A program made the position numbers and the translations under genes. From Oscillospiraceae bacterium (GTDB lineage Bacteria > Bacillota > Clostridia > Oscillospirales > CAG-272), in NCBI GenBank assembly GCA_015064155.1, contig SVST01000002.1, positions 1 to 64,000 of the forward strand: DNA of 64,000 nt. Reading direction: 5' to 3'. The notes beneath the pieces are model-generated. The model had not been told where the DNA came from. It did no database searches and worked only from the letters and a program-made list of their open reading frames with translations. Positions 4,180 through 41,541 of the stretch are shown here, piece by piece (position 1 is the first letter of the stretch; each line of letters begins with the position of its first letter).

Positions 4180-4209
4180 GAAAAATTCAGAAAAAAATTG
4201 CAAAGACTA

Positions 4210-4239
4210 TTGCCAGAAACACGGGTTCCGTGTTATAAT
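4210..4239 (+). promoter_or_regulatory. Promoter of prfB with palindrome in the spacer
   Basis: TTGCCA (4210-4215) and TATAAT (4234-4239) are 18 bp apart. The spacer holds a perfect 7-3-7 palindrome, AACACGG-GTT-CCGTGTT (4218-4234), which reaches the first base of the -10 box. This is the geometry of a repressor operator; whether a repressor binds is inferred. Confidence 0.6.
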
Positions 4240-4298
4240 AATATCGAACACAGCAAAATTTTGAAGAATACACCGCAGCGCGGTGTTGGAGGTACCCT

Positions 4299-5408: not shown

Positions 5409-5438
5409 CCGACTAACCGAAGAAAGGGAGAACTTGCA

Positions 5439-5723
5439 ATGAGTGACAAAAAGTATTTTCTGGCAAGCGCAGCAATCACCTTGGCATCTGCTGCTGTTTT
5501 GATTACAACGGCAAAGAAAAAGCCTAAAAAATCGGTCTATACGGCTCTTGTTTTGGCAGGCGTTGCAGGATTTGCCGGTGCCGCAGCTCTGGCATATCAG
5601 CCCAGCCGTCAAGCAAAAAAGCGGTTGATCGTTGAAAAGCTGGTGGATGAGATCGACATCCCGGATCTGGAACAGAATATTTCCGAGATTTTGGGCGGTC
5701 TTTCCGAAACCGTATTGGAATGA
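5439..5723 (+). CDS. Small two-helix membrane protein, unknown
   Basis: 94 residues with AAAGGGAG before the ATG. Two hydrophobic segments (about 5-26 and 34-52) are separated by a basic KKKPKK turn, then an acidic amphipathic tail of about 35 residues. It lies 30 bp after prfB and is probably read from the same promoter. Function not recognised. Confidence 0.75.
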   Translation: MSDKKYFLASAAITLASAAVLITTAKKKPKKSVYTALVLAGVAGFAGAAALAYQPSRQAKKRLIVEKLVDEIDIPDLEQNISEILGGLSETVLE

Positions 5724-5740
5724 AATCAAATAAAGCAAAA

Positions 5741-5778
5741 AAATCGCCGTGCTTCACTTTCCTGAAGCACGGCGATTT
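5741..5778. terminator. Bidirectional terminator between convergent genes
   Basis: A 16-bp perfect stem (AAATCGCCGTGCTTCA and its complement) with a 6-nt loop lies between the convergent small membrane protein and ppa. The run of A before it on the plus strand gives a strong U tract for minus-strand transcripts. Confidence 0.85.
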
Positions 5779-5814
5779 CGCATCCTTGCAAAAAGCTATT
5801 CGGTTATCTGTCCG

Positions 5815-6360
5815 TCAGTTGGATGAAACATGATCGGCAAAATCGCGGTTATACGTGTCAATTGCTTCTTGGATGATCTCTTTTGCCTCGTCCACACCAA
5901 ACAGCGTCTTCACTGCGGTCTGCTTGTTTTCAAGCTGCTTGTAAACGCTGAAGAAATGCATAATTTCATCGAAGATATGAGAAGGCAGCTCGTCGATTGA
6001 GGAAATCCCCAGATAGGACGGATCGGAAAACGGAATGGCAATCACCTTGTCGTCCATCTTGCCGCCGTCAATCATGCGCATCACACCGATGGGATATACG
6101 CGAATCAGCGTTAAAGGATAGATCGGCTCGGAGCAGAGCACCAAAACGTCCAACGGGTCCCCGTCGTCGGCATAGGTGCGCGGAATAAAGCCGTAGTTGG
6201 CGGGATAGTGCGTGGAGGTATACAAAACGCGGTCAAGCTTCAACAGTCCCGTGAACTTATCAAGCTCGTATTTACATTTACTTCCTTTCGGAATTTCGAT
6301 CACCGCGGTAAAGTCCTCGGGGGTGATCGCCGCAGGATCTATATCGTGCCAAATATTCAC
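5815..6360 (-). CDS. ppa: Inorganic pyrophosphatase, family I
   Basis: 181 residues. It hydrolyses pyrophosphate to two phosphates, driving biosynthetic reactions. Family I signature and active-site residues are visible: 'EIPKGSKCKYELDK' (Lys/Glu near 25-35), 'YPANYGFIPRT' and the Asp cluster 'DDGDPLDVLVL' (about 66-76). The start is GTG with GGAGG upstream. It is the last gene of the minus-strand der-obgE block, 18 bp after obgE. Confidence 0.95.
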   Translation of the reverse strand: MNIWHDIDPAAITPEDFTAVIEIPKGSKCKYELDKFTGLLKLDRVLYTSTHYPANYGFIPRTYADDGDPLDVLVLCSEPIYPLTLIRVYPIGVMRMIDGGKMDDKVIAIPFSDPSYLGISSIDELPSHIFDEIMHFFSVYKQLENKQTAVKTLFGVDEAKEIIQEAIDTYNRDFADHVSSN

Positions 6361-27201: not shown

Positions 27202-27314
27202 GAGTTATTTGTTCGTATTATTGGCAAATCGTTCAGAAAAGTCCCCAAAAAACTTTTTCATTCGGGACGATTTCTCATCATAATAGCGATCTGAACAGAA
27301 ATTGGCAGAAGAAG

Positions 27315-27670
27315 GGATCGCAATTGCAATATCGTACTGTATATGGTGACAAGGTATTCACCTGCGGCGAAGATACCCTCCGCTTGCCGCTTACGAGCGA
27401 GCTCGACGCGCTCTTCGCGGGGGTATGCGAACTTGCAGTTGTTGCGGAGCAACAACCAAGGGCGAAGTGGGTCACCTCGACCATAACAAAAAGGATCGCA
27501 ATAGCGATATCGTACTGTATCTGGTGACAAGGTATTCGCCTACGGCGAAGATACCCTCCGCTTGCCGCTTACGAGCGAGCTCGACGCGCTCTTCGCGGGG
27601 GTATGCGAACTTGCAGTTGTTGCGGAGCAACAACCAAGGGCGAAGTGGGTCACCTCGATCATAACAAAAA
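27315..27670. repeat. Two tandem 178-bp units derived from tRNA-Pro
   Basis: GGATCGCAA starts units at 27315 and 27493, and a third partial unit starts at 27671 (the real tRNA terminator), so the period is exactly 178 bp. Read on the minus strand each unit keeps pieces of tRNA-Pro in order: the 5' acceptor CGAGGTG, the D-arm CTTGG, the T-arm GCAAGTTCG and the 3' CTTGTCACC. A hairpin (TTGTTGCTCCGCAACAA) replaces the anticodon arm and about 70 bp of palindromic sequence interrupts the T loop. The units also carry half of the terminator hairpin. There are no coding genes here. Confidence 0.8.
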
Positions 27671-27697: not shown

Positions 27698-27774
<77 letters not shown>

Positions 27775-28083: not shown

Positions 28084-28935
28084 ATGGCAACTTTCACAAA
28101 TAGAGCAACACTTTCCTATAACGGGGGAACAATTGATTCCAACACCGTTACAGGCACCTTTTTAGAAACGCTGGCAATCACCAAAACCGCTACCGTGGAA
28201 AGCTATTCCACCGGCTCGTGCGTAACCTATGCAGTGAGTCTTGTAAACTCGGGAAGCACACCGTTCACCGGTCTTACTCTCACCGATGATCTTGGCGGAT
28301 ACGATTTGGGCGGAACCACCGTTTATCCCTTAAGTTATGTAGACGGGTCGATCCTGTACTATATCAACGGAGCTTTACAAGCGGATCCGGAGATTGGTAC
28401 AACACCTCCCTTGACGATCAGCGGTGTTTCTGTTCCTGCCGGTGGGAATTCCCTGCTGGTATATACGGTTGACGTAGGCGCAGCCGCACCTCCTATTGTG
28501 GGTGGCACAATCGTCAACACCGCGACCGTAAGCGGCGGAGGCTTGCCCGAAGACCTCAACGCAACCGAAACCATTACCGCCGAAAATCAACCTGCATTGA
28601 GCATTACCAAAACGCTCAATCCCACCGCTGTTCCCGAAAACGGAACCATCACCTACAGCTTCCTGATTGAGAACCGCGGAAATACCGATGCGGTTGCAAC
28701 CGATAATCTCACCGTCAGCGATGTATTCGATCCCATTCTCACCATTACGTCCGTAACGCTCAACGGAGTGGCATTGACTGCCGGAACCGACTACACCTAC
28801 GACGAAGCAACCGGCACGTTTGCAACGGTTCCCGGCTTGATTACCGTTCCCGCAGCAACCTTTACGCAAGATTCCGATGGTAATTACACCATTCTTCCCG
28901 GAAGCGCGGTTTTAGTCGTTACCGGCACGATCTGA
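28084..28935 (+). CDS. Two-domain DUF11 protein, possible spore-surface or appendage protein
   Basis: 283 residues (about 29 kDa) with no signal peptide, anchor or sortase motif. Two DUF11-type beta-sandwich repeats: about 30-165, 'LAITKTATVESYSTGSCVTY', and about 170-283, 'LSITKTLNPTAVPENGTITY'. The chain is very poor in Lys/Arg and rich in Thr/Gly. AAAGGAG lies before the ATG. The size and double-DUF11 layout match what I recall of the P29 ribbon-appendage proteins of Clostridium spores; an outer spore-layer role is therefore a hypothesis. No other spore-coat genes are adjacent. Confidence 0.8.
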   Translation: MATFTNRATLSYNGGTIDSNTVTGTFLETLAITKTATVESYSTGSCVTYAVSLVNSGSTPFTGLTLTDDLGGYDLGGTTVYPLSYVDGSILYYINGALQADPEIGTTPPLTISGVSVPAGGNSLLVYTVDVGAAAPPIVGGTIVNTATVSGGGLPEDLNATETITAENQPALSITKTLNPTAVPENGTITYSFLIENRGNTDAVATDNLTVSDVFDPILTITSVTLNGVALTAGTDYTYDEATGTFATVPGLITVPAATFTQDSDGNYTILPGSAVLVVTGTI

Positions 28936-28956: not shown

Positions 28957-28991
28957 AGAGGGCTGTTTTCATGTAAAACAGCCCTCTGTTT
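28957..28991. terminator. Bidirectional terminator
   Basis: The stem AGAGGGCTGTTTT and near-perfect complement with a CATG loop lies between the convergent DUF11 gene and the end of the fumarate-reductase operon. Confidence 0.85.
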
Positions 28992-28999
28992 CTGTTTGG

Positions 29000-30274
29000 T
29001 TAGAACAAAATGATTAGGAATTGAGAAACAAGAACAACCGAAATCAAAGCGATCGGATAGGTAGCTGCGTATGCTGCTGCCACATCCTCGGTTCCCGATA
29101 CGCCGATCAGCGTCCCCAATGCGGGAGTACTGGTCATACCGCCCGTCAAAGAGCCGAGATTGTTCAAAAGACTAAGCTTGAGTACGTATTTTGCAAACAG
29201 GAAGCCCAAGATCATCGGAATGATGGTCATAACAATTCCGTATACAAAGTACATGGGGTCAAAGTTCTGCACAAATTCTGCGCCGCCGGGAATACCTGCA
29301 CCAACCAGGAACAGCACCAGTCCCAACTCACGGAACAGCTTCAACGTGCTTTGCGTGGGCATCATATTCACCGGACCGAAATGTCCGAAATGTCCAACGA
29401 TCAAGCTGACCAACAAGCATCCGCCCGTGGTGGTCAGAGAAAAGCAAGTGCCACTCAATCCGTCACCCGAAAGCGGAATCTTAATCTGACCGATCAACGT
29501 ACCGAGAATTGCCGCAAAAGAAAATGCCGCGATACCCATATGGTCAATGTCAAACAACTTGTGAACAACCGTTTTTTTGGTTTCCTCTGCCTTGATTACC
29601 AGCTTTGCGCGTTCCTCTTCCATGTTCGCCTTCGACATTTTGGGAATCAGCTGGACAAACAACACCACACCGATAACACCGAAGATATACGCAATGCCGT
29701 GTCCTACCGATACCAGCGATTCATATTCCGGTGCAACCGTTGCTTTCGCTGCAGAAAATGCGGGGGTAGAAGTCAGTGAACCGGACAAAAGGCCTACGAT
29801 CATGGCAACAAAGCCGTCCTGATTCTCGATGTTTCCACCGTAGCCGACAACCTCGCCCATTGCAATACAGCCCGCAGCGGCAAGACCGCCTGCAAGAATC
29901 ACAACCAAGCCGAGCAGCACGTAAGACTTGAAGTTTCTCTTAAAGTTTCCAAAGAACTTCGGTCCTGCGATAAAGCCTACGGAAGCTACAAACAAAATCA
30001 AACCAAGATTTTCGATAAGCGACAAAGCAGCTGAAAAGTCATAAGGTTTTGCATTTTTCTCAACATATGAAAAATCAAAGCACAGATTGTCATTTTTCAC
30101 ATAAAAGAACAGTGCGCCAATCAACAATGCTACGATAAACACGCCTGCATCTCCCAGCGAAATTCCCTTCACCTTAATTCTGCCAAGAAGGTAGCCCAGC
30201 ATCAAAACCGCAAACACAACGAATAAAAGCGTTGGTATATCCTTAATCAAAATAACACCGCCAAACAATCGCAT
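29000..30274 (-). CDS. AspT/YidE-family membrane carrier, probable dicarboxylate exporter
   Basis: 424 residues with about ten membrane helices in two homologous halves. Each half has the family motif: 'GLLSGSLTSTPAFSAA' (about 164-179) and 'GSLTGGMTSTPALGTLIG' (about 380-397). The AspT/YidE/YbjL family usually carries TrkA_C (RCK) domains between the halves; here only a short charged loop (about 212-240) is left. AspT exchanges aspartate for alanine. As the last gene of a malate-fumarate-succinate operon, this one is a good candidate for C4-dicarboxylate export or exchange. Substrate inferred. AAGGGGG precedes the ATG. Confidence 0.85.
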   Translation of the reverse strand: MRLFGGVILIKDIPTLLFVVFAVLMLGYLLGRIKVKGISLGDAGVFIVALLIGALFFYVKNDNLCFDFSYVEKNAKPYDFSAALSLIENLGLILFVASVGFIAGPKFFGNFKRNFKSYVLLGLVVILAGGLAAAGCIAMGEVVGYGGNIENQDGFVAMIVGLLSGSLTSTPAFSAAKATVAPEYESLVSVGHGIAYIFGVIGVVLFVQLIPKMSKANMEEERAKLVIKAEETKKTVVHKLFDIDHMGIAAFSFAAILGTLIGQIKIPLSGDGLSGTCFSLTTTGGCLLVSLIVGHFGHFGPVNMMPTQSTLKLFRELGLVLFLVGAGIPGGAEFVQNFDPMYFVYGIVMTIIPMILGFLFAKYVLKLSLLNNLGSLTGGMTSTPALGTLIGVSGTEDVAAAYAATYPIALISVVLVSQFLIILF

Positions 30275-30286
30275 GATGATTCCCCC

Positions 30287-31891
30287 TTAAATACTCTTCT
30301 GCTTGGTGTAATTGGGGAGCAGCTTGGGGGATACGGTATCAGTTACGATACCCGCATCGGCAATCTGTTTCTCAAATGCATCAATGTGATCCAGCGTCAA
30401 GGCACCTACCTCGGTAGTCTTTGCCGCAGCAGCCGCGTGAATACCCGCGCTGCGACCGAATACGATGATATCAAGCAGCGAATTACCCATCAAGCGGTTC
30501 TTGCCGTGGATACCGCCAACCGCCTCGCCTGCAACGAATAGGTTCCGCACGTTGGTGGTCATACCGTCGGGGGTAATATCCAAGCCGCCGTTCTGATAGT
30601 GCAGCGTGGGGTATACGAGAATCGGCTCGTAGCGAATATCGATGCCGTACTTCTCAAACATTCTCCACATGGCGGGAATTCTCTTCATGATGGTTCCCTC
30701 CCCGCCGATCTTTTCGATCATGGGAGTATCCAGCCATACGCCCTTACCGTTGCCGCAATCGATACCGTTATCGCGCTCACTGCACTCACGGATGATCGAA
30801 GCCGCCGTTACGTCACGGGTTTCCAGCGGATGCATGAACACCTCACCGTTCTTGTTTACCAGCTTTGCACCGAGCGAACGAACCTTTTCGGTTACCAGCG
30901 CACCGAAGATCTGCTCGGGGAATGCAACGCCCGTGGGATGATATTGCAGCGTTTCCGCATACAAAAGCTTTGCGCCTGCTCTGTAGCCGAGAACCAGACC
31001 GTCCGCGGTTGCACCGTAGTGGTTGGAGGTCGGGAAGCCCTGATAGTGCATTCTTCCGGCACCGCCGGTTGCGATGACGACGGTCTTTGCCTTTGCGACG
31101 AGAAGCTCCTTGGTTTCCATGTTCATCAGAACCGCACCTGCCGCATTGCCGTTTTCATCCAGAATCAGCTCGATTGCCGCGGTAAAATCGACAACGGGAA
31201 TTCCGCGGTTCAGCACTTCATCACGAAGCGTTCTCATGATTTCAGCACCCGAGTAGTCCTTTGCCGCGTGCATACGCTTGCGGGAGGTACCGCCGCCGTG
31301 CGTGGTAACCATCGTTCCGTCGGCTTCCTTATCGAATTCCACGCCAAGGTTGCTCAGCCATTGAATTGCCTCGGGAGCGTCACACACGAGCTTGGAAAGC
31401 AGCTCTCTCTTTGCCGCAAAGTGACCGCCGCCAAATGCGTCTACGAAGTGGATTGCGGGGGAATCGTTGGGCTTATCGGCAGCCTGAATACCGCCCTCTG
31501 CCATCATGGTATTTGCATCACCGATGCGCAGCTTGGTAACGATCATAACCTTTGCGCCTGCCTCGTGCGCCTCGATTGCCGCGGAAGAGCCTGCTCCGCC
31601 GCCGCCGATGACCAAAACGTCGGTTTCGTAATCGGGCTTCTCCAGGCATACGCTATCCTTGGTGATGCGGCTGTGTGCCTGCAGGATCTCGGCAAGCTCC
31701 TTCGGAACCTTATCGCCCTTATTGGGACCGATTTGAAGGACCGCGAACTCATCTACCTTATAGTCGGGGTGGAAGGAAGCGAGAACGGTTTCCTTTTGCT
31801 CTGCGGTCATGCGGACCGGATCAAGCGCAATGTTTTTCTCTCTGGACGCTTCCACGCGCGCAAGAGATTCCTTAAACTGTTCAGAATACAT
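30287..31891 (-). CDS. frdA: Fumarate reductase flavoprotein subunit, soluble type
   Basis: 534 residues. An N-terminal extension of about 90 residues ('ASFHPDYKVDEFAVLQIGPN') precedes the FAD Rossmann motif DVLVIGGGGAGSS (about 91-103). The substrate-site 'YHPTG' and 'GIHGKNRLMGNSLL' motifs are present. The His that covalently binds FAD in membrane SDH/QFR (normally in 'SHT..AEGG') is Asn127 here ('ANTMMAEGG'), as in L-aspartate oxidase, so FAD should be non-covalent. The C-terminal helical domain is shortened. No membrane anchor (FrdC/D) exists in the operon. It reduces fumarate to succinate; L-aspartate oxidase is an alternative but does not fit the neighbours. Confidence 0.9.
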   Translation of the reverse strand: MYSEQFKESLARVEASREKNIALDPVRMTAEQKETVLASFHPDYKVDEFAVLQIGPNKGDKVPKELAEILQAHSRITKDSVCLEKPDYETDVLVIGGGGAGSSAAIEAHEAGAKVMIVTKLRIGDANTMMAEGGIQAADKPNDSPAIHFVDAFGGGHFAAKRELLSKLVCDAPEAIQWLSNLGVEFDKEADGTMVTTHGGGTSRKRMHAAKDYSGAEIMRTLRDEVLNRGIPVVDFTAAIELILDENGNAAGAVLMNMETKELLVAKAKTVVIATGGAGRMHYQGFPTSNHYGATADGLVLGYRAGAKLLYAETLQYHPTGVAFPEQIFGALVTEKVRSLGAKLVNKNGEVFMHPLETRDVTAASIIRECSERDNGIDCGNGKGVWLDTPMIEKIGGEGTIMKRIPAMWRMFEKYGIDIRYEPILVYPTLHYQNGGLDITPDGMTTNVRNLFVAGEAVGGIHGKNRLMGNSLLDIIVFGRSAGIHAAAAAKTTEVGALTLDHIDAFEKQIADAGIVTDTVSPKLLPNYTKQKSI

Positions 31892-31904
31892 GTTGCTTTC
31901 CTCC

Positions 31905-32579
31905 TTACTTTTCGATGTCGCGATTGTTGTAGAGCTCTTTCATCTCTGCAATCGGCTTTTGCATCAATGCTTCGATCAACTCGTTGAAGCTTCCGTTCTT
32001 GATCTCCTGAACGCGATCCTCCAGATGTCCGCAGCCGGGAGCCAAGTACTTACCGTTGATACGGCGAGCCAGCATGGCAACCTGCGGATGCGAAATTCCT
32101 GCGGGGCAACGGGAGGAGCATACACCGCACATCACGCAGTCGAAGGATTCCTCCGCACATTTTTCGAAGTCCCCTCTTTGTGCGTACGCAATGTATTGCA
32201 TCACGTTCAAGCCCTGCGTACAGCTCTTGGTACAAGCATTACAGCCGATACAAGAATAAATTTCGGGATAAAGCTGCATCATCACAGCCTCGGTGGTTGG
32301 GATTTTTTCAACGTCATAAACCTGCTTTACCAAGGGGAAGAAAGGCAGGGTTGCAATGTACATATTGTCCTCAACCTTGGTCTGACAAGCCAGGCAAGCC
32401 TTCAATTCACGGTCGCCCTTGATGCGGTAGATGGTCGCACACGCACCGCAAAAGCCGTTACGGCAGCCGCAACCGCGAACCAACTGGTATCCCGCATATT
32501 CCATTGCGGTCATAATGGTCAGATTTTCCGGCACCTCATATTTTTTGCCGAAAAGAAATATATTTACCGTCTTTTCCAT
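31905..32579 (-). CDS. frdB: Fumarate reductase-type iron-sulfur subunit
   Basis: 224 residues. An N-terminal plant-type 2Fe-2S domain has cysteines in 'RGCGCRNGFCGAC' (about 35-47) and a fourth in 'KACLAC'. A C-terminal dicluster domain follows with CIGCNACTKSC (about 110-120) and CVMCGVCSSRCPAG (about 148-161). It passes electrons to the flavoprotein encoded 13 bp downstream. Unlike archaeal TfrB it carries no CCG domains; those are on the separate HdrB protein of this operon. Confidence 0.88.
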   Translation of the reverse strand: MEKTVNIFLFGKKYEVPENLTIMTAMEYAGYQLVRGCGCRNGFCGACATIYRIKGDRELKACLACQTKVEDNMYIATLPFFPLVKQVYDVEKIPTTEAVMMQLYPEIYSCIGCNACTKSCTQGLNVMQYIAYAQRGDFEKCAEESFDCVMCGVCSSRCPAGISHPQVAMLARRINGKYLAPGCGHLEDRVQEIKNGSFNELIEALMQKPIAEMKELYNNRDIEK

Positions 32580-32591
32580 CTGTTTTCTCCT

Positions 32592-33425
32592 TTAATACTC
32601 GTTCGGGAGCTCTTCAAGCTCGTCGCATCTGAATACGGGTCCATCCTTACATACGTACTTCGCGCCTACGTTACATCTTCCGCATTTACCGACACCGCAC
32701 TTCATGCGAAGCTCCAGCGTGGTATAGACCTGCGTTTTGTCAAAGCCAAGCGCAATCAATCCCTCCAGCGTAAACTTGATCATGATGGGAGGACCGCAAA
32801 GCACCGCGGTCTTGTTCGTATCAAAGCCAAGCTCCTTGACGTAATTGGGAACGAAGCCTACGTGACCGTCCCAATCGGGCTGCGCGTTATCGATGGTCAG
32901 GTGAACCTTCACGCCCGCATCGTTCGACCACTCCTCAATGATCTCGCGATAATCCAACAGATCTGCCTTGCTGCGCGAGCCGTATACGATGTCGATATCA
33001 CCGTAGCGGTCGCGGTAGTGACGGCAATAGTTGATAACCGAACGCAAGGGGGCAAGACCTACACCGCCCGCAATGAACAACAAATTTTTGCCTGCAAAGA
33101 CGTCGTCCACGGGGAACGGATTTCCGTAAGGACCTCTGATCGTGATCTGTTGCCCTGCTTCAGCCGCGTGCAGCCATTCGGTTACACAACCGCACTTTTT
33201 GATGGAAAACTCCATATATTCGGTATTCGTGGGCGAAGAGGTGATGGAAAACATTGCCTCGCCGACACCGGGAATCGAAAGCATTGCACACTGTCCCGGG
33301 CGATGGTCAAACGCCTTCTTGCCGTCGGGAGTCACAACGCGAAAGGTCTTGATGTCGGGAGTATCGAGCCGCACGTCGGTGATCACACCGACTACGGGAA
33401 TCAGGGTATCGGGTGTATTAGTCAT
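32592..33425 (-). CDS. NAD(P)H-FAD reductase subunit, FlxA/AsrB-like
   Basis: 277 residues of the ferredoxin-NADP reductase family. The FAD domain is about 1-105 ('HRPGQCAMLSIPGVG'), the NAD domain opens with 'LLFIAGGVGLAPLRSV' (about 112-127), and the C-terminal 2Fe-2S site is 'KCGVGKCGRCNVG' (about 242-254) with a later Cys. It is the electron entry subunit in sulfhydrogenase gamma, AsrB and FlxA proteins. The context with HdrABC and MvhD points to FlxA, oxidising NADH. It overlaps the preceding gene by 8 bp. Confidence 0.88.
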   Translation of the reverse strand: MTNTPDTLIPVVGVITDVRLDTPDIKTFRVVTPDGKKAFDHRPGQCAMLSIPGVGEAMFSITSSPTNTEYMEFSIKKCGCVTEWLHAAEAGQQITIRGPYGNPFPVDDVFAGKNLLFIAGGVGLAPLRSVINYCRHYRDRYGDIDIVYGSRSKADLLDYREIIEEWSNDAGVKVHLTIDNAQPDWDGHVGFVPNYVKELGFDTNKTAVLCGPPIMIKFTLEGLIALGFDKTQVYTTLELRMKCGVGKCGRCNVGAKYVCKDGPVFRCDELEELPNEY

Positions 33426-34446
33426 TTTCGTTTCCTCCCATTGCTTTCATCACTTTCACGATATTCATCGAAATCGGACACTTGGAAAGGCATCTGCCGC
33501 ATCCTACGCATCCAAAGATTCCCTCGTTATTCTCGGGATAGTAGACCAGCTTATGCATGAATCTTTGGCGGAAACGCTCGGTTTGCGTCAGTCTGTTGTT
33601 TCCGTGCGCCATTTTCGTGAATTCGGAATACATACAAGAGTCCCAACAACGGAAGCGAATCACGCCGTTCCCCGTGTTGAAATCCTTGATATCGTAGCAC
33701 TGGCAGGTGGGGCAAACGAAGGTACAGGTTCCGCAGCCCAAGCAGGTGGAGGACAGACTCTCCCACAAAGGATTGTTGAAAAATTCCTTGGTTTTTCCGC
33801 CGCCGAAATTCTTGGTATCCAGATCCTTCAAGGGCAGCTTCTCCAGAATTTTCTGCGTCTTTGCCCTTTGTGCATCTACCGCTTCGGTTCCGCATTCCTC
33901 GCAAAGATCTCCGATCAAAGCAAGCAGCGCACTTCCCTTTTCGGTATTCGCGGTAAAGTATACTGCGTCATCGGTTCTCCAAGCGGTTACGTCACCTGCG
34001 GGAGAGGTCGCGTCGATGCCGAAAACCGAGCAGAAGCAGGTTTCGGCAGGCTTGCCGCACGCTACCGACACGATAATGCCGTGGTCACGGCGATTTTTGT
34101 AAAAGCTGTCAACGGGGTCGGAGAGGAACACGCGGTCCAGAATATCAAAGCTGCGAACGTCGCACGCGCGAACGCCGAAGATTACGAAAACCTCGTTTTC
34201 TTCGCGGATGTCGATCACCTCAATCTTCTTGCCCTCGGTTTTAAACTCCATCAGATTTTCGGTTTGCGGGAAGAAGAAGTCCTTGGCACTGCGCTCGGTA
34301 TTAAGCGCGGTGCTCCACTCCTTGCCCTCGCTCCATACGTCAAAGCGAGTTTTTCCGTCGCCTCTGTCAACGGGAAGATAGAGCTTCATCGATTCGGCAA
34401 TCCTTGCGAATGCCGCGTTGACGTTTTGAAGAGAACATTTCAACAT
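33418..34446 (-). CDS. 4Fe-4S dicluster protein, FlxB/AsrA-like
   Basis: 342 residues. The N-terminal two thirds resembles the AsrA/sulfhydrogenase-beta fold ('VIFGVRACDVRSFDILDRVF', about 130-149). Two cluster motifs follow: CLGCGTCTFVCPTC (about 233-246) and CVGCGRCLSKCP (about 312-323). It probably relays electrons from the FAD-NADH subunit towards MvhD/HdrA. Its start codon overlaps the previous stop (TAATG). Confidence 0.85.
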   Translation of the reverse strand: MLKCSLQNVNAAFARIAESMKLYLPVDRGDGKTRFDVWSEGKEWSTALNTERSAKDFFFPQTENLMEFKTEGKKIEVIDIREENEVFVIFGVRACDVRSFDILDRVFLSDPVDSFYKNRRDHGIIVSVACGKPAETCFCSVFGIDATSPAGDVTAWRTDDAVYFTANTEKGSALLALIGDLCEECGTEAVDAQRAKTQKILEKLPLKDLDTKNFGGGKTKEFFNNPLWESLSSTCLGCGTCTFVCPTCQCYDIKDFNTGNGVIRFRCWDSCMYSEFTKMAHGNNRLTQTERFRQRFMHKLVYYPENNEGIFGCVGCGRCLSKCPISMNIVKVMKAMGGNEND

Positions 34447-35438
34447 TACCGATCCCCCCTATCAAAAACCTCGCCGGGCTCCAGGTCGCCAAGCGTATAA
34501 TCGATCAACGGTGCGCGACTTCCAACCTCGGCACCCGCCTGATACTCCCCGTAAAACTCGTTGATGTCCTTGATAAATTTACGGTTGAGCAGATGAAGCG
34601 GAATATTTTGCGGGCAAACGCGCGAGCATTCACCGCAATCGGTGCAGCGTCCCGCCACGTGGAACGCGCGGATGATGTGGAACATCTTTTCCTCAAAGCT
34701 GTTGGCGGGAGCCTTGTTCTCCAAGGAGGATGCGGGGTTATCAAACACACACTTTTCGCAGGTGCAAGCGGGGCAAGCGTCGCGGCAAGCATTACAGCGG
34801 ATGCAGCGCGAAAGCTCCTTCTGCCAGAACGCAAAGCGCTCGTCGGGAGTCATTTTCTCCAATGCCTCGACCTCATCAAAGCGATTGGAATCGATCACGT
34901 CGCCCGCATCTCCCAAAAGCTCGTCGTAAGCCACGTGCTTTTTGCTCTTGCAGTTCTTGCAACGCTCGGAAAGAGCGTCGGCATAGGATACGCGAATCGG
35001 TGCATCCTCGTACAGCGTGCTGACTGCCATCGCGTCGGCTTCAAATTCGATCTTCGAAATACCGTCGCCTGCGATGCTCTTAACACGGTTGATATCTGCC
35101 ATGCCTTCGCAGGGGACACCGACGACGTAAACGCGCTCGCGGTCAAAGCGGTGCTCGGTAAGCAGCTGATTGAAGCTGTAGGTATCGCAAGGCTTGAGGA
35201 AGACCAGAATCTTCCCCTCATGCTTGCGGGTTTTGGCTACCAAATACTTGGAAAAGTTCGCGCCGCAGAAATCATTCCATACGAAATTCGCTTTCAGATC
35301 GGCGGCATCGGTGAAGACGAAGGGTGTGACGTCATAGTCAAATTCACCGGCTCTCCAACCGAGAACACAGGATACCGTGTTGCTCTCAAGCAAGGCAACC
35401 GCCTTCTCCAGCAACACCTCACGGTTTATTTTTTGCAT
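34446..35438 (-). CDS. 4Fe-4S dicluster protein, FlxC/FrhB-like
   Basis: 330 residues. An N-terminal region with 'ILVFLKPCDTYSFNQLL' resembles the second iron-sulfur protein of Flx and formate/F420-type modules. A 'CKNC' pair lies near residue 181, and two ferredoxin motifs follow, CIRCNACRDACPAC (about 217-230) and CTDCGECSRVCP (about 268-279). It overlaps the mvhD-like gene by 13 bp. Exact electron partners are inferred from gene order. Confidence 0.83.
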   Translation of the reverse strand: MQKINREVLLEKAVALLESNTVSCVLGWRAGEFDYDVTPFVFTDAADLKANFVWNDFCGANFSKYLVAKTRKHEGKILVFLKPCDTYSFNQLLTEHRFDRERVYVVGVPCEGMADINRVKSIAGDGISKIEFEADAMAVSTLYEDAPIRVSYADALSERCKNCKSKKHVAYDELLGDAGDVIDSNRFDEVEALEKMTPDERFAFWQKELSRCIRCNACRDACPACTCEKCVFDNPASSLENKAPANSFEEKMFHIIRAFHVAGRCTDCGECSRVCPQNIPLHLLNRKFIKDINEFYGEYQAGAEVGSRAPLIDYTLGDLEPGEVFDRGDR

Positions 35439-35860
35439 CTCAGATCCTCCAATCTCTTGTTTTCTCCAAGTGCTGTTACGGTTTCAACGAAATCGTTCAT
35501 GGTTGCGGCAAACTTTGCGCCCTCTGCCGCAGAAACCCACTCAACGCGGGTACGCTCACGCTCAATGCCCAGATAATCCAGCATGGAGAACAACAGAGCC
35601 ATACGACGGCGCGTATAGTAGTTCCCCGAGGTGTAATGGCAGTCACCGGGATGGCATCCGCACAAAATCACACCGTCCGCACCGCGCTGAAAGGCACGCA
35701 AAACGAACATGGGATTGACGCGGCAGGAGCAAGGCACGCGAATGATCTTGACATCCGCAGGATAGTTCAAACGGTTGTTTCCCGCCAGATCTGCGCCCGC
35801 ATAGGAACACCAGTTGCAGCAAAACGCTACGATCAGGGGCTTATGTTCTTTCATTTGCAT
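35426..35860 (-). CDS. mvhD: MvhD/FlxD-type iron-sulfur protein
   Basis: 144 residues from ATG 35860 (GGAGG 11 bp upstream; an ATG two codons later is possible). The MvhD 2Fe-2S cysteines are in 'VAFCCNWCSYAGADL', 'RVPCSCRVNP' and 'VILCGCHPGDCHY'. MvhD/FlxD connects a hydrogenase or flavin module to HdrA. The start overlaps the hdrA stop by about 10 bp, which matches that pairing. Confidence 0.92.
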   Translation of the reverse strand: MQMKEHKPLIVAFCCNWCSYAGADLAGNNRLNYPADVKIIRVPCSCRVNPMFVLRAFQRGADGVILCGCHPGDCHYTSGNYYTRRRMALLFSMLDYLGIERERTRVEWVSAAEGAKFAATMNDFVETVTALGENKRLEDLRCKK

Positions 35861-37845
35861 ATTGCATCCACCTCCGCAATGATTTGGCTGTTGGCAAAGC
35901 CGCGAAGATCCATCGCACCCGAAGGACAGGTCACCGTACACGCACCGCAGCCCTGGCAAACCGCGGGATTGACCTGCGCCACACGGCGAATCGCGGTGGT
36001 TCGGTTGGGCATACGGAATTCCTTTTCCGCATAGGTGATCGCACCGTAAGGACATACCTTTTCGCAGGACGAGCAGCCATTACACATCCACTCGTCGGGG
36101 TTTGCGATGCAGGGGTTGCCCGTCAGCTTATCCTTTGCAAGCAGACCGATGACCTTTGCGGCGGCGGCACTTGCCTGCGATACGGTTTCGGGAATATCCT
36201 TGGGACCTTGGCAGGCACCCGACAAGAACACGCCCGCCGTGGGGCTTTCCACGGGACGGAGCTTGGGATGCGCTTCGGTAAAGAAGTCGTTGGTATCCAT
36301 GCTTGCCGTCAGCATCGTTGCCAAGGGACGGGCAGACTTATCGGGCTCGATTGCGGCGGCAAGCACCACGAGATCGGCATCGATATGAAGCTGTCGATTG
36401 TTGAGCAGATCGGATGCCTGCACCTTGAGCTTATTGCCCTCGGGCGAAACCTTACCGACCATACCCTTGATGTATTTCACACCGTATTCCTCAACGGCAC
36501 GGCGATAAAACTCATCAAAGCTCTTACCGGGGGTACGGACGTCGATATAGAATACGTAAACCTCGGTATCCGGATATTTATCACGCGTCAGCATTGCGTG
36601 CTTTGCAGTGTACATACAGCAGATCTTGGAGCAATATTCCTTGCCCTTCTCCGCGCAAGACGCGCAACGCGAGCCAACGCACTGTACGAACACGATGGTG
36701 TGCGGATGTACACCGTCGGAGGGACGAAGCAGTTTTCCGGCGGTAGGTCCTGCCGCATTGGTCAAACGCTCGAACTCCAGAGAGGTAATCACGTCCTTGG
36801 ACTGATTGTACGCAAACTCATCGAACTTCTCCATGCTGATGGGATTGAAGCCGGTTGCCGCAACGATCGCGCCATACTTTTCTTCAATAATTTCGTCCTT
36901 TTGCTTGTAGTCGATCGCACCCGCGGTACAAACCTTGGCACACACGCCGCATTTGCCGTTTTTGAGCATATTACAAGCGTTGGGATCGATGGTAGCAACC
37001 TTCGGAACAGCCTGCGCAAACGGAATGTAAATGGCGCGACGGTTATCCATACCGAGGTTGAACTCGTTGGGAACCTTCTTCATCGGACATTTTTCCACGC
37101 ACGCACCGCAGCCCGTGCAAACGTCCTCCTTGACGAATCTTGCGCGCTTCTTGATCTTGACGTCAAAGTTTCCGACAAAGCCCGAAATCGACTCCACCTC
37201 ACTGTAAGAGAAGATACGGATCTTTTCATGCTGTGCAACGTCCACCATTTTCGGGGTCAGGATACAAGCGGCACAGTCAAGCGTCGGGAAGGTCTTATCA
37301 AGCTGCGCCATCTTTCCGCCGATGGTGGGCTTGGTTTCCACGATATCCACGGGGAATCCCGCGTCCGCAATATCCAGCGCGGTTTGAATACCGGCAATAC
37401 CGCCGCCGATCACCAAGGCGCGCTTGGTAACGGGAGATTCACCGGGAGTCAGGGGAGCATTCAGATTCACCTTTGCAATCGCCGCTTTTCCGAGGATGAT
37501 CGCCTTTTCGGTGCCGGTTGCCATGTCCTTGTGTACCCAGGAGCACTGCTCGCGGATGTTGGCGATTTCCACCATGTAAGGGTTCAGTCCCGCTGCTGCC
37601 GCGGTCTTGCGGAAGGTTGCCTCGTGCATACGGGGCGAGCAGGAGCAAACCACGATACCGGTCAGGCGATGCTCCTTTACCGCATCGATAATCATGTTCT
37701 GTCCCGCCTGGGAGCACATATATTGGTAGTTGTCGGAAAAGACAACGCCGGGCTCGTGCTTCAGTGCATCGGAAACCGCCTGCACGTCAACCGTGCCTGC
37801 AATGTTCGTGCCGCACCAGCACACAAAAACACCAATTCTTTGCAT
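35851..37845 (-). CDS. hdrA: Heterodisulfide reductase-like subunit A (FAD, bifurcating)
   Basis: 664 residues, full HdrA length. It has an N-terminal domain ('RIGVFVCWCGTNI'), the FAD motif 'ALVIGGGIAGIQTALDIADAG' in part (about 143-160), and internal ferredoxin sites 'CTGCGACVEKCP' (about 245) and 'CGVCAKVC' (about 300). A C-terminal ferredoxin domain follows with CNGCSSCEKVCP and CQGCGACTVTCP (about 595-645). HdrA carries the FAD that splits electron pairs between a low-potential ferredoxin and a high-potential acceptor. Here the acceptor branch (HdrBC) lies in an operon with fumarate reductase. Confidence 0.95.
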   Translation of the reverse strand: MQRIGVFVCWCGTNIAGTVDVQAVSDALKHEPGVVFSDNYQYMCSQAGQNMIIDAVKEHRLTGIVVCSCSPRMHEATFRKTAAAAGLNPYMVEIANIREQCSWVHKDMATGTEKAIILGKAAIAKVNLNAPLTPGESPVTKRALVIGGGIAGIQTALDIADAGFPVDIVETKPTIGGKMAQLDKTFPTLDCAACILTPKMVDVAQHEKIRIFSYSEVESISGFVGNFDVKIKKRARFVKEDVCTGCGACVEKCPMKKVPNEFNLGMDNRRAIYIPFAQAVPKVATIDPNACNMLKNGKCGVCAKVCTAGAIDYKQKDEIIEEKYGAIVAATGFNPISMEKFDEFAYNQSKDVITSLEFERLTNAAGPTAGKLLRPSDGVHPHTIVFVQCVGSRCASCAEKGKEYCSKICCMYTAKHAMLTRDKYPDTEVYVFYIDVRTPGKSFDEFYRRAVEEYGVKYIKGMVGKVSPEGNKLKVQASDLLNNRQLHIDADLVVLAAAIEPDKSARPLATMLTASMDTNDFFTEAHPKLRPVESPTAGVFLSGACQGPKDIPETVSQASAAAAKVIGLLAKDKLTGNPCIANPDEWMCNGCSSCEKVCPYGAITYAEKEFRMPNRTTAIRRVAQVNPAVCQGCGACTVTCPSGAMDLRGFANSQIIAEVDAICK

Positions 37846-37859
37846 TTGTCCTTTCCTCC

Positions 37860-38252
37860 TTATTTCGTATACTTACGGAATGCGCTGACGATTGCCTGCT
37901 GCGGCATATCCTCGTCGAGAAGCGCGGGGACCGCATCTGCCGTCAGGTGATTCATTCCCTGCTGTCTGACCGTAATCAAGCGCACTGCCTCAATCAGCTT
38001 TGCGGGCTCGACGCCGCGCGGACAACGCTCCACGCAAGCAAAGCAGGTCAGGCATTTGTAAAGCGAATCGGAAGCCATCAAGGGCTCGATATCACCGTTT
38101 TCGATCATATTGACAAACTGATGCGGATGATACTCCATCTCGTCGTATGCAGGACAGGTTGCCGAGCATTTCCCGCAACGCATACATTTCAAAGGATTTG
38201 CTCCGCTGATACGGATCACTTCCTCCTTCAAAGCGTTGGTATCCTTATTCAT
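37860..38252 (-). CDS. hdrC: Heterodisulfide reductase-like subunit C
   Basis: 130 residues with two 4Fe-4S motifs, CMRCGKCSATCP (about 23-34) and CLTCFACVERCP (about 67-78). ATG 38252 has AAGGAGG upstream and overlaps the hdrB stop by 8 bp. It relays electrons from HdrA to HdrB. Confidence 0.93.
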   Translation of the reverse strand: MNKDTNALKEEVIRISGANPLKCMRCGKCSATCPAYDEMEYHPHQFVNMIENGDIEPLMASDSLYKCLTCFACVERCPRGVEPAKLIEAVRLITVRQQGMNHLTADAVPALLDEDMPQQAIVSAFRKYTK

Positions 38253-39033
38253 GGGAATCCTCCTTTACACCAAGCGCCTCTGCCAACAGCTCGGTAAAAT
38301 AAATCACGGGAACCGAAGAGCCACTCTTTTCCAGGTTGTAGCGGCAAAGGGGGCACGCGGTAACGATTGCTTCCGCACCGCAGCCTACCGCGTTTTCGGT
38401 TACACGGTTACTCTTTTTCTTTGCAGACTCACGAGATTCCATTGCGATGTAGCCGCCGCAGCACTCGTTGCGGTACGCATAATAAACGGGCTCTGCACCG
38501 ATTGCGCGAATGAAATCCTCCATGATACGGGGATTTTCGGGGTCGTCCATCTGCATCACGTTGCCGGGACGCAAAAGGAGGCAGCCGTAGTATGCGGCAA
38601 TCTTCTTGCCCTTTTGGGGATTGACAACCTTTTCCTTGAGCGTGTCAAAGCCCACCAGATCGCGCAGCATCTCCAAATAGTGATACACTGCAGTTGATCC
38701 GTCGTAGGACTCTTCTTCATTCATATAACGGTTTACCTTATCGGCAAACTCTGCATCCCGCATGGCGTGATTGGTCTGCTTAATCACGTTATGGCAAGCC
38801 GAGCAAACCGTAACCAAGGGTTGCTCCTTCTCTTTTGCCGCCTTCAGGGCACGCACCGAAGAGAGCTTGGTGGCAATTTCATCGCGCGAGGTGGTAAACA
38901 CACCGCCACAGCACTGCCACTCTTCAATTTCCTCCAGCGTGATCCCCAAAGCCTCGGCGCATTTTCTTGCGTAAACGTCAAGATCCTTTGCCTTGTTTTT
39001 CAGGGTACAGCCCGGAAAATAACTAACTTTCAT
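38245..39033 (-). CDS. hdrB: Heterodisulfide reductase-like subunit B (two CCG domains)
   Basis: 262 residues. Three ATG codons are consecutive (39033-39039); the third has the best spacing from GGAGG and gives the family start MKVSYFPGC. Both CCG cluster-binding domains are complete: 'CCGGVFTTSRDE' plus 'CSACHN', and 'ECCGGYIAMESRE' plus 'ACPLCRYN'. These bind the noncubane 4Fe-4S clusters that reduce disulfides in methanogens. An HdrB-like protein is also part of the 8-methylmenaquinol:fumarate reductases, so a role in delivering electrons to FrdB is plausible. Confidence 0.93.
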   Translation of the reverse strand: MKVSYFPGCTLKNKAKDLDVYARKCAEALGITLEEIEEWQCCGGVFTTSRDEIATKLSSVRALKAAKEKEQPLVTVCSACHNVIKQTNHAMRDAEFADKVNRYMNEEESYDGSTAVYHYLEMLRDLVGFDTLKEKVVNPQKGKKIAAYYGCLLLRPGNVMQMDDPENPRIMEDFIRAIGAEPVYYAYRNECCGGYIAMESRESAKKKSNRVTENAVGCGAEAIVTACPLCRYNLEKSGSSVPVIYFTELLAEALGVKEDSHE

Positions 39034-39048
39034 CATCATGCCTCCAAA

Positions 39049-40425
39049 TTATACCATCTGTTCGGGATGGAAGACCTCGTCAAAGCGCTCTGCGGACAAG
39101 AATCCAAGCTCAACGCAGGCTTCCTTGAGCGAAATATTATCCTTGAATGCTTTTTTGGCGGTCTTTGCCGCATTTTCGTATCCGATATAGGGATTGAGCG
39201 CGGTTACCAGCATCAGCGAGTTGTGCAGATTGTGGTGCATCTTCTCGCGGTTTGCGGTGATACCGACAGCACAGTTTTTATTAAAGGAAGTAATTGCCTC
39301 GGCGAGCAATCTTGCCGACTGCAGGAAATTGTAAATGCAAACGGGCATAAACACGTTCAATTCAAAGTTGCCCTGCGATGCCGCCATGCCGACCGCTACG
39401 TCGTTGCCCATGACCTGTACGGCTACCATGGTAACAGCCTCACACTGCGTGGGGTTCACCTTACCGGGCATAATCGAGGAGCCGGGCTCGTTCTCGGGAA
39501 TAAAGATTTCGCCAAGACCGTCGCGGGGACCCGATGCCAACCAGCGAACGTCGTTTGCAATCTTCATCATGTCGCAGGCAAGTGCCTTGATCGCACCGTG
39601 CGCGAATACCAATTCGTCCTTAGAGGTGAGAGAATGGAACTTGTTGGATGCGGTTACAAAGGGCTTGCCCGTGATCTTACCGATCTCGGTTGCTACCATC
39701 GTATCAAATCCCTTGGGAGCGTTCAGACCCGTACCGACCGCGGTACCGCCGAGTGCCAGCTCATACAAGGGAGCGATCGAACGCTGAATCAGCTCAACGT
39801 CCTTTTCCAGGCTGGATCTCCAGCCGCTGATCTCCTGGCTGAACTTGATCGGGGTTGCGTCCTGCAAATGGGTTCTTCCACTCTTTACGATGCCTTCGTT
39901 CTCGGCTTCCAGACGCTTGAAGGTTTCGATCAACGTATTCACCGCAGGAATCAGCTTATCCTCCAGGGCAAGAACCGCCGCGATGTGCATTGCCGTGGGG
40001 AAGGTATCGTTGGAGGATTGGCTCATGTTGGAGTCGTCATTGGGATGAACCAGCTTTTTACCGAGGATCTCGTTTGCGCGGTTTGCAATGACCTCGTTGG
40101 CATTCATGTTAGATTGCGTACCGGAGCCAGTCTGCCAAACGACCAACGGAAAATGGCTGTTGAGCTTGCCCGCCATCACCTCATCGCAAGCGGTGCGGAT
40201 TGCACAAAGCTTTTCCTCGGTCATCTTTTCGGGGCGAAGAGCGTGATTGGTCACGGCTGCCGCCTGCTTCAATACACCAAACGCATGAATGATCTCCATC
40301 GGCATGGTTTCGATTCCCACACCGATCTCAAAGTTTTCGTGGCTTCTTTGGGTCTGTGCAGCCCACAAGCGGTCTGCGGGAACCTTAACCTCGCCCATCG
40401 AATCATGTTCAATACGGTACTCCAT
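39049..40425 (-). CDS. fumC: Class II fumarate hydratase
   Basis: 458 residues from ATG 40425 (GGAGGA 8 bp upstream; GTG 40431 is too close). It interconverts malate and fumarate. The superfamily signature GSSIMPGKVNP is at about 315-325, with 'SGRTHLQDATP' and 'GTQSNMNANEVI' active-site regions. It is oxygen-stable and iron-free, unlike FumA. It sits between the malate/lactate-type dehydrogenase and hdrB (15-31 bp gaps), supplying fumarate to the reductase of the same operon. Confidence 0.96.
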   Translation of the reverse strand: MEYRIEHDSMGEVKVPADRLWAAQTQRSHENFEIGVGIETMPMEIIHAFGVLKQAAAVTNHALRPEKMTEEKLCAIRTACDEVMAGKLNSHFPLVVWQTGSGTQSNMNANEVIANRANEILGKKLVHPNDDSNMSQSSNDTFPTAMHIAAVLALEDKLIPAVNTLIETFKRLEAENEGIVKSGRTHLQDATPIKFSQEISGWRSSLEKDVELIQRSIAPLYELALGGTAVGTGLNAPKGFDTMVATEIGKITGKPFVTASNKFHSLTSKDELVFAHGAIKALACDMMKIANDVRWLASGPRDGLGEIFIPENEPGSSIMPGKVNPTQCEAVTMVAVQVMGNDVAVGMAASQGNFELNVFMPVCIYNFLQSARLLAEAITSFNKNCAVGITANREKMHHNLHNSLMLVTALNPYIGYENAAKTAKKAFKDNISLKEACVELGFLSAERFDEVFHPEQMV

Positions 40426-40456
40426 CTTCACTATCCTCCAAAAAATTCTATATCAT

Positions 40457-41401
40457 TTAAATTTTAATGCTATTGATAACGGCTCTCAGACTATCTGCGC
40501 TTCTGTGCAGATTCACAAGCTCCTCGTCGTTCAAACGAAGCATAACCTTGCTGTGTGCGCCGGCTTCCCCAACGATGTTCAAAAGGCTAAGACAAATGTC
40601 GTCGATCCCGTACTCGCCGTGCAGCATGGTAGAAACGGTCAGCGTGGTATCAATACCGCTGAGCAGGCATTGACAGATATGCGCCACCGACATCGAAACG
40701 GCATAGAAGGTTGCACCCTTTCTTTGAATCACGCTGGCACCCGACTTGCGGACGTACTCCTCAACCTCGTTGCGATCAAGCTTCGGGTAGTTGCGGTCAA
40801 CGTGCAGCAAAGAGCCTGCATACTCGTCAACCGGAACGTTCGAAATGTTGGCAAGCGACCAGGTAACGAAAGAGGAATCGCCGTGCTCACCGAGAACGTA
40901 AGCGTGCACGTTCTGCTGGTTCACCGCATAATACTCCGAAATTCTGGAGCGCAAGCGCGCAGTATCCAAAATCGTTCCCGAACCGATGATGCGCGCCTCG
41001 GGAAGACCCGAATACTTGCAGAATACGTAAGTCAGAATATCCACGGGGTTGCTTACGATAATGTAGCTTGCATTGGGAGCATATTTCAAAATTTGCGGTG
41101 TGATGGACTTGAGAATATCGACGTTGGTCTGTGCCAAATCCAAGCGAGATTGTCCTGCCTTTCTGGCAACACCCGAGGTGATAATCACGATGTCGGAGCC
41201 GGCCGCATCGGGATAGCTTCCCGCATAGATCGAGCAAGGGTTGCAAAAGGGCGTTCCCTGACGGATATCCATTGCCTCGCCAAGTGCCTTTTCACCGTTG
41301 ATATCGATCATCACGATCTCGGATGCGATGCCCGAAATCGTCAAGGTATACGCAATGGTAGAGCCTACGCTACCCGTTCCGATAACCGTAATTTTTTTCA
41401 T
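40457..41401 (-). CDS. LDH-fold dehydrogenase, predicted malate-specific
   Basis: 314 residues with NAD motif 'VIGTGSVGSTIAY' (7-19), catalytic 'GEHGDSSF' and 'NPVDILTY'. Overall it is most like bacterial L-lactate dehydrogenase. In the mobile substrate loop, however, 'SGVARKAGQSRLDL' has Arg80 where LDH has the pyruvate-specifying Gln102; Arg at this place is the malate/oxaloacetate determinant. The next gene is fumarase. So it probably reduces oxaloacetate to malate with NADH at the head of the pathway, although sequence databases may call it lactate dehydrogenase. GAGGAA lies before the ATG. Confidence 0.9.
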   Translation of the reverse strand: MKKITVIGTGSVGSTIAYTLTISGIASEIVMIDINGEKALGEAMDIRQGTPFCNPCSIYAGSYPDAAGSDIVIITSGVARKAGQSRLDLAQTNVDILKSITPQILKYAPNASYIIVSNPVDILTYVFCKYSGLPEARIIGSGTILDTARLRSRISEYYAVNQQNVHAYVLGEHGDSSFVTWSLANISNVPVDEYAGSLLHVDRNYPKLDRNEVEEYVRKSGASVIQRKGATFYAVSMSVAHICQCLLSGIDTTLTVSTMLHGEYGIDDICLSLLNIVGEAGAHSKVMLRLNDEELVNLHRSADSLRAVINSIKI

Positions 41402-41512: not shown

Positions 41513-41541
41513 ATTTTAACAAATCAAGTTCGTCTTGTCAA
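41513..41541 (-). promoter_or_regulatory. Promoter of the twelve-gene fumarate operon
   Basis: On the minus strand: TTGACA, 17 bp, TAAAAT, near consensus. The transcript would have a leader of about 105 nt. I see no other strong promoter between here and 29 kb. Confidence 0.75.

Follow-up and report, generated by a model that had tools for sequence, protein, structure and literature searches.

Within a window of 64,000 nucleotides from the genome of an Oscillospiraceae bacterium (contig SVST01000002.1), twelve minus-strand genes form an operon that, taken as a whole, is best explained as a bifurcating, quinone-free branch of fumarate reduction, a reading of the sequence that we regard as likely. 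In such a branch, oxaloacetate would be converted to malate by malate dehydrogenase (Mdh), malate to fumarate by FumC and fumarate to succinate by FrdAB, and succinate would leave through an AspT-type carrier. Fumarate reduction would be driven by a cytoplasmic bifurcating complex that oxidises reduced nicotinamide adenine dinucleotide (NADH). Electrons would pass from NADH to FlxA, the Flx iron-sulfur (Fe-S) subunits, FlxD and the flavin of HdrA, where one electron would run down the ferredoxin domains of HdrA to ferredoxin and the other, by way of HdrC, HdrB and the HdrC-like half of FrdB, would reach FrdA and fumarate. We infer that FrdAB contacts the Hdr subunits within a single physical complex working in this direction, with the two reductions strictly coupled. 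The net reaction would be 2 NADH + fumarate + oxidised ferredoxin -> 2 NAD+ + succinate + reduced ferredoxin. The standard potentials are -320 mV for NADH, +30 mV for fumarate and -400 to -500 mV for ferredoxin, and from these values the reaction would come to approximately -52 to -33 kJ/mol.

An earlier note, made from the sequence alone, had proposed fumarate as the high-potential acceptor of the Flx-Hdr complex, together with extra energy conservation. We retain that mechanism as the best explanation because FrdA and HdrA co-occur, the gene order is conserved, the residue signatures fit and no menD or membrane anchor gene was found; the energetic part did not hold up, as described below.

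The idea of a bifurcating Flx-Hdr fumarate reductase is not new, having been proposed in 2019-2020 for Pseudoclostridium thermosuccinogenes. The published account (PMC7282089), which cites a 2019 preprint by Koendjbiharie and van Kranenburg for the proposal, describes a "succinate operon" (CDQ83_RS03365-RS03315) with proposed coupling to ferredoxin, in the order fumarase, Flx-Hdr (RS03360-30), fumarate reductase (RS03325-20) and putative succinate transporter. The window operon has a fumarase, Flx-Hdr, two fumarate reductase genes and a transporter in that same order and is headed by mdh, whereas the passages describing the P. thermosuccinogenes operon mention no leading mdh. We consider it a P. 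thermosuccinogenes-type operon, with mdh at its head, in a lineage of gut Clostridia (as judged by the nearest named relatives). In the same source, the succinate operon is approximately 4-fold up under CO2 limitation, and the near abolition of succinate by added H2 in an older study is cited as fitting. A literature search with little coverage of subscription papers, whose hits were mostly judged by their listing, found no later biochemical test of the coupling.

Gene content and residue signatures

The open reading frame (ORF) listing of the window gives twelve open frames, all on the minus strand, from position 41401 down to 29000 (Table 1). Domain searches assigned them, in order, to an Ldh_1 fold, FumC, HdrB (two CCG domains), HdrC, HdrA, FlpD/MvhD, two Fe-S proteins and a flavin adenine dinucleotide (FAD)/NAD reductase, followed in the 3' part by FrdB-like, FrdA-like and AspT-type permease sequences. 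The twelve same-strand genes of the earlier note agree with these results in both coordinates and families.

All seven subunits of the FlxABCD-HdrABC complexes of sulfate reducers and other anaerobes, with their canonical motifs, are also in the window operon: FAD/NAD domains in FlxA, an MvhD domain in FlxD, flavin and Fe-S sites in HdrA, two CCG domains in HdrB and a dicluster domain in HdrC. The window operon differs from those complexes in adding FrdAB as acceptor; the proposed acceptor of the Desulfovibrio vulgaris Flx-Hdr complex is DsrC. In alignments, ten cysteines of HdrB were invariant (75 of 75 rows), seven of the eight HdrC cysteines were kept in all 76 rows and the eighth in 75, the cluster-motif cysteines of HdrA at 243-306, 588-598 and 630-640 were kept in 80 of 80 rows, and FlxA cysteines 243, 248, 251 and 259 were present in 90 of 90. 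The ShyB, HydB and AsrA models all scored below cut-off on the flxC product. The true start of flxD is probably internal to the listed frame, in which the domain covers amino acids (aa) 75-197.

Window FrdA has the fold and catalytic residues of complex II and Escherichia coli FrdABCD, and the operon differs from the latter by lacking the anchor, the covalent-FAD histidine and, as far as cluster type can be predicted, the 3Fe-4S signature. Seven catalytic residues (H, T, E, R, R, H, R) were kept in 96 of 97 FrdA rows, the exception being an early-ending frame (L073), and the covalent-FAD histidine was replaced by asparagine in all 97. In FrdB, the valine of the E. coli protein was a fourth cysteine in 92 of 92 rows, which predicts a 4Fe-4S instead of a 3Fe-4S cluster. 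These details fit a soluble, quinone-free, fumarate-reducing enzyme.

The first gene had been described as an LDH-fold (lactate dehydrogenase) dehydrogenase; the fold was confirmed, and the product can be refined to a probable malate dehydrogenase. Arginine at the specificity position LDH-102 is expected of malate dehydrogenase and glutamine of lactate dehydrogenase. The equivalent residue 80 was arginine, not glutamine, in 60 of 60 aligned rows, although two curated lactate dehydrogenase models exceeded their cut-offs (among them TIGR01771, 332 versus 304 bits). Of four PDB chains aligned at this position, three annotated lactate dehydrogenases had glutamine and 1y6j had arginine. As for the last gene, the succinate exporter SucE1 belongs to the AspT/YidE carrier family according to PMC9527358.

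Table 1. Features of the operon and its borders in the window
Feature	Position	Strand	Basis
mdh, probable malate dehydrogenase, LDH fold	40457..41401	-	PF00056/PF02866; Arg at residue 80
fumC, class II fumarase	39049..40431	-	TIGR00979 718 bits, cut-off 665
hdrB, two CCG domains for non-cubane 4Fe-4S clusters	38245..39039	-	PF02754; PDB 8rvv_B 1.9e-34
hdrC, two 4Fe-4S clusters	37860..38252	-	domain/family models; eight Cys
hdrA, FAD- and Fe-S-bearing bifurcating subunit	35851..37845	-	PDB 5odc_A 684 bits, query 3-661
flxD/mvhD, MvhD-type link	35426..36055	-	PF02662 185 bits
flxB (letter tentative, by position), Flx Fe-S subunit, dicluster domain	34446..35438	-	domain match; conserved Cys
flxC (letter tentative, by position), Flx Fe-S subunit, AsrA/HydB type	33418..34446	-	PF17179
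flxA, FAD/NAD(H) reductase with Fe-S motif	32592..33425	-	PF00970, PF00175, PF10418
frdB, 2Fe-2S domain and HdrC-like dicluster domain	31905..32579	-	Cys151 at position of Val in E. coli FrdB
frdA, fumarate-reductase flavoprotein	30287..31891	-	own N-terminal extension (~87 aa); C-terminal helical domain and covalent-FAD His absent
AspT/YidE-family carrier, likely dicarboxylate (succinate) exporter	29000..30274	-	PF06826
Likely sigma-70 promoter	41513..41541	-	TTGACA-17-TAAAAT, TG before second hexamer; consensus scan 11/12
Intrinsic terminator	28957..28987	-	13-pair stem, T-rich tail; also readable as plus-strand terminator

Gene neighbourhoods within and outside the class

A scan of public genomes for FrdA returned at least 580 encoding stretches, of which the best 80 loci (77-91% identity) were kept. 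A sample of 148 class genomes supplied twenty further loci; its 22 carriers of FrdA include one that was left out (G099) and the window's own genome. Four of the resulting 100 loci share an identical FrdA with another locus. The nine-gene core hdrB-hdrC-hdrA-flxD-flxB-flxC-flxA-frdB-frdA was whole in 76 loci, cut by a contig edge in 24 and broken in none. The arrangement is thus beyond chance, the core order being kept in 100 of 100 loci as far as the contigs reach. Within the same reach, fumC was found in 65 loci, mdh in 62 and the carrier in 71. Similarity searches found neither fumC nor mdh before hdrB in L103 and L104, and mdh without fumC in L097, L100, L101 and L102.

The earlier note had suggested looking for co-occurrence of hdrA and flx genes with anchor-less frdAB in Clostridia, and this expectation was borne out. 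FrdA was present in 22 of the 148 class genomes (19 of 113 genera; E <= 1e-60) and HdrA, at 60% identity or more, in 22, with both together in 21 (Fisher 2.9e-23, relatedness ignored). The single genome with FrdA alone is 75% complete with a cut contig, and the one with HdrA alone is 62% complete and cut on both sides. One contig carries both genes in 19 of the 21 genomes; in G007 and G126 the parts are found at the ends of contigs and can be fitted to one another. Among cultured strains, Eubacterium coprostanoligenes ATCC 51222 (L070) has the complete core. If our reading is true, fumarate joins the acceptors of flavin-based electron bifurcation, the succinate formation of gut Clostridia seemingly without quinones gains a possible explanation, the FrdA type being present in those 19 genera, and the 2019 proposal becomes testable in cultured strains. 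More distant HdrA relatives (44-48% identity) exist in three more class genomes (G022, G037 and G065), and the first two contexts were inspected. That of G022 adjoins an [FeFe] hydrogenase; in G037, HdrA-like fusions are clustered with FlxD and Flx genes (L127, 3564-14358).

Quinone-related genes were searched in 24 genomes, including the window's own, which is 86% complete. None of the 24 had menD over cut-off (weak matches below it occurred in 17, and the window's genome gave no match). The earlier note's missing membrane anchor was likewise corroborated, with no Sdh_cyt (PF01127) protein over cut-off in any of the 24 and none in the operon. PF02621 (MqnA/D) exceeded its low cut-off in two of the 24, not including the window's genome, a result that concerns genes and not chemistry.

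A search of 398 phylum genomes gave 39 rows, from 38 genomes other than the window's, that matched FrdA at 50-63% identity from residue 1-5, whereas the other FrdA matches listed had at most 42% identity and started at residue 64 or later. We inspected the contexts of 32 rows, the remaining seven all belonging to family f111, and one of the 32 was cut (L142). In five, Hdr and Flx genes lie by FrdBA in two other block orders, namely hdrC-hdrB-hdrA-flx-frdBA (L114) and frdBA-hdrBCA-flx, which is whole in L116 with L131 and L118 with L132 and was seen into flxC in L145 and into hdrA in L136. Four rows (L106, L108, L112, L141) have HdrB, HdrC, HdrA, a further HdrA-like sequence and a FlxD-like stretch, and another four (L107, L117, L135, L144) have HdrC-HdrB with no other Hdr or Flx gene. 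The HdrA-like fusions between hdrA and the FlxD-like stretch measure 1489 aa in L112 (8922-13391), 1070 in L106 (8932-12144) and 1098 in L108 (8955-12251); that of L112 also contains a glutamate-synthase/Nfn-like Fer4_20 and flavin part. We read these fusions as one more version of the coupling.

The deepest relatives of FrdBA encode a cytochrome b561-type protein that also carries a 4Fe-4S domain, at 3953-4942 (L122), 4027-5013 (L123) and 4848-5855 (L124), an unusual membrane donor for this fumarate reductase; its domains were tested in L124, and the other two were assigned by similarity. Two rows (L109, L119) have a flavin mononucleotide (FMN)-binding Fe-S protein near FrdBA, tested for the domain in L109. 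Beside its gene lie genes for proteins of approximately 550 and 190 aa (L109, 6162-8857; L119, 8787-10994), common to two families and, in L109, with no Pfam match at 1e-5. One genome, G236, carries two FrdA copies of the operon type (L119 and L120), one of them with no recognisable adjoining frdB. Fumarase, malic enzyme and sucCD are among the genes adjoining FrdBA outside the class, which points to fumarate or succinate as substrate. Since the neighbourhood states are mixed on the FrdA tree, FrdBA resembles a module that can be served by different electron donors, and its joining to Hdr/Flx has probably recurred, or Hdr/Flx may have been present ancestrally and then lost.

Fate of the ferredoxin and rival explanations

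No RnfC over cut-off, RnfD or PF00346 hydrogenase was found in the window's draft genome, nor in 11 further carriers of the 22. RnfC exceeded its cut-off in 10 of 22 FrdA carriers versus 96 of 126 others (Fisher 0.0086, relatedness ignored), and the RnfD search gave the same 10 carriers. Weaker RnfC-family matches occurred in 144 of the 148 genomes, with up to 213 bits in carrier G007. Absence from a single draft is weak evidence, and absence across the set is stronger, since six of the carriers that lack Rnf are 96-100% complete (G013, G014, G047, G050, G088, G128). PF00346 was present in 24 of the 148 class genomes and in one of the carriers, and an [FeFe] hydrogenase in all 24 genomes searched. 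The window's organism, in this respect, differs from P. thermosuccinogenes, said in PMC7282089 to have both Rnf and Ech.

On contig C21 of the window's genome (L130, 8563-12726), a HydA of group A6 (841 bits, cut-off 765) is preceded on the same strand by NuoF-like and NuoE-like genes, both below the Nuo model cut-offs. Judged by sequence, this hydrogenase is probably an NADH-dependent HydABC. Because neither Rnf nor a PF00346 hydrogenase was found and the hydrogenase is probably of this type, the ferredoxin reduced by the operon can hardly feed a known pump, and the extra energy conservation of the earlier note is unsupported in this organism. The likelier outlet would be H2, by confurcation through HydABC, or biosynthesis. 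We tentatively extend this to many gut Clostridia, in which a bifurcating fumarate reductase would serve the disposal of NADH as hydrogen rather than energy conservation by an ion pump, with FrdBA as a plug-in acceptor module repeatedly linked to Hdr/Flx and, in other genomes, to a cytochrome b or different donors. HydABC would then use ferredoxin and NADH together, so that 3 NADH + fumarate -> succinate + 2 H2. This extension is suggested by the greater frequency of genomes without Rnf among carriers (12 of 22 versus 30 of 126 other class genomes) and by the 21 of 22 carriers without PF00346.

Several observations weigh against a bifurcating fumarate reductase in the window. A known ion pump for ferredoxin was not found in this 86% complete genome. 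The FrdA and FrdB residue marks also occur in the Hdr-less forms outside the class (20 of 20 and 19 of 19 rows) and are thus not proof of a link to Hdr. Thirteen of the 32 rows inspected show no Hdr gene in the vicinity of FrdBA (L105, L110, L111, L113, L115, L120, L121, L134, L137-L140, L143) and also have no cytochrome or FMN gene nearby; seven adjoin fumarase genes, mostly with malic enzyme too, and two of them (L138, L139) are short upstream. In three rows (L122-L124) the cytochrome b561 and Fe-S protein directly follows frdA. Given such neighbourhoods, FrdBA does not need Hdr everywhere. Conversely, the 19 kb inspected in G037 contain Flx genes and a distant fused HdrA (44%) and lack FrdA, so FrdAB is not the only possible acceptor of Flx-Hdr. 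Finally, the authors of PMC7282089 describe as confusing how succinate responded to culture redox, Na2S acting opposite to H2.

Of the rival explanations, the one that survives best, itself unlikely, is a thiol/disulfide shuttle, in which Flx-Hdr would bifurcate at HdrB to a disulfide, either small or on a protein, while FrdAB with an HdrB-type subunit oxidised thiols with fumarate, like a split thiol:fumarate reductase (Tfr). All ten HdrB cluster cysteines are kept, FrdB and HdrB-type chemistry resembles TfrAB of methanogens, and the FrdA-like subunit of Tfr lacks covalent FAD, as does window FrdA. Among NCBIfam models, TfrA scored highest on FrdA, and TfrB was one of the stronger matches for both FrdB and HdrB; none of these scores came near its cut-off (338 versus 718 bits for TfrA; 38 on FrdB and 48 on HdrB versus 385 for TfrB). 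In contrast to the TfrB fusion, frdB and hdrB are separate genes, FrdA has no C-terminal domain and the drive would come from Flx-Hdr. Moreover, no CCG protein other than the operon's HdrB was found in the 86% complete genome, leaving no second such subunit, and the one-to-one operon suggests direct transfer.

It is less probable still that the same proteins work without bifurcation or in reverse, oxidising succinate or driving NAD+ reduction from ferredoxin, as the tricarboxylic acid-type neighbourhoods of Hdr-less FrdBA outside the class might suggest. When E. coli FrdA loses its covalent-FAD histidine, succinate oxidation suffers more than fumarate reduction does, and that histidine is absent in 97 of 97 rows; the Fe-S set of HdrA is complete, and an exporter-type gene ends the operon.

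Action of FrdA on another substrate, as an aspartate oxidase or on some other unsaturated acid, is very improbable. The FAD histidine is missing as in NadB, whose model gave 264 bits, but this is below the cut-off of 453, fumC lies within the operon, and fumarase, malic enzyme or sucCD genes adjoin FrdBA elsewhere. L-aspartate oxidase was rejected as the identity of FrdA, Glu121 of E. coli NadB being replaced by histidine in all 97 rows.

Least credible of all is a quinol donor with HdrB acting like SdhE, the HdrB-like third subunit and anchor of 8-methylmenaquinol:fumarate reductase SdhABE: the SdhE model scored slightly above the HdrB model (158 versus 146 bits) and PF02621 gave its two matches, but both scores are far below cut-offs (500 and 345), menD was over cut-off in none of 24 genomes and the 3Fe-4S signature is missing from FrdB.

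Promoter, terminator and flanking sequences

The single promoter of the earlier note was matched by a near-consensus TTGACA-17-TAAAAT upstream of the twelve-gene block (41541-41513), and a terminator hairpin (28987-28957) lies directly 3' of the last gene. Across the whole region, promoter-type and hairpin-type sites barely exceeded chance (13 versus 11.2 and 19 versus 16.9 in shuffles), so both are informative by position only. A plus-strand frame of 283 aa with DUF11/DUF7507 matches (28084-28935) ends 21 bases ahead of the hairpin, which would serve both strands, this frame included. Farther along, a 178-nucleotide repeat in two tandem copies (96% alike) lies beside a tRNA-Pro gene (27312-27667 and 27698-27774).

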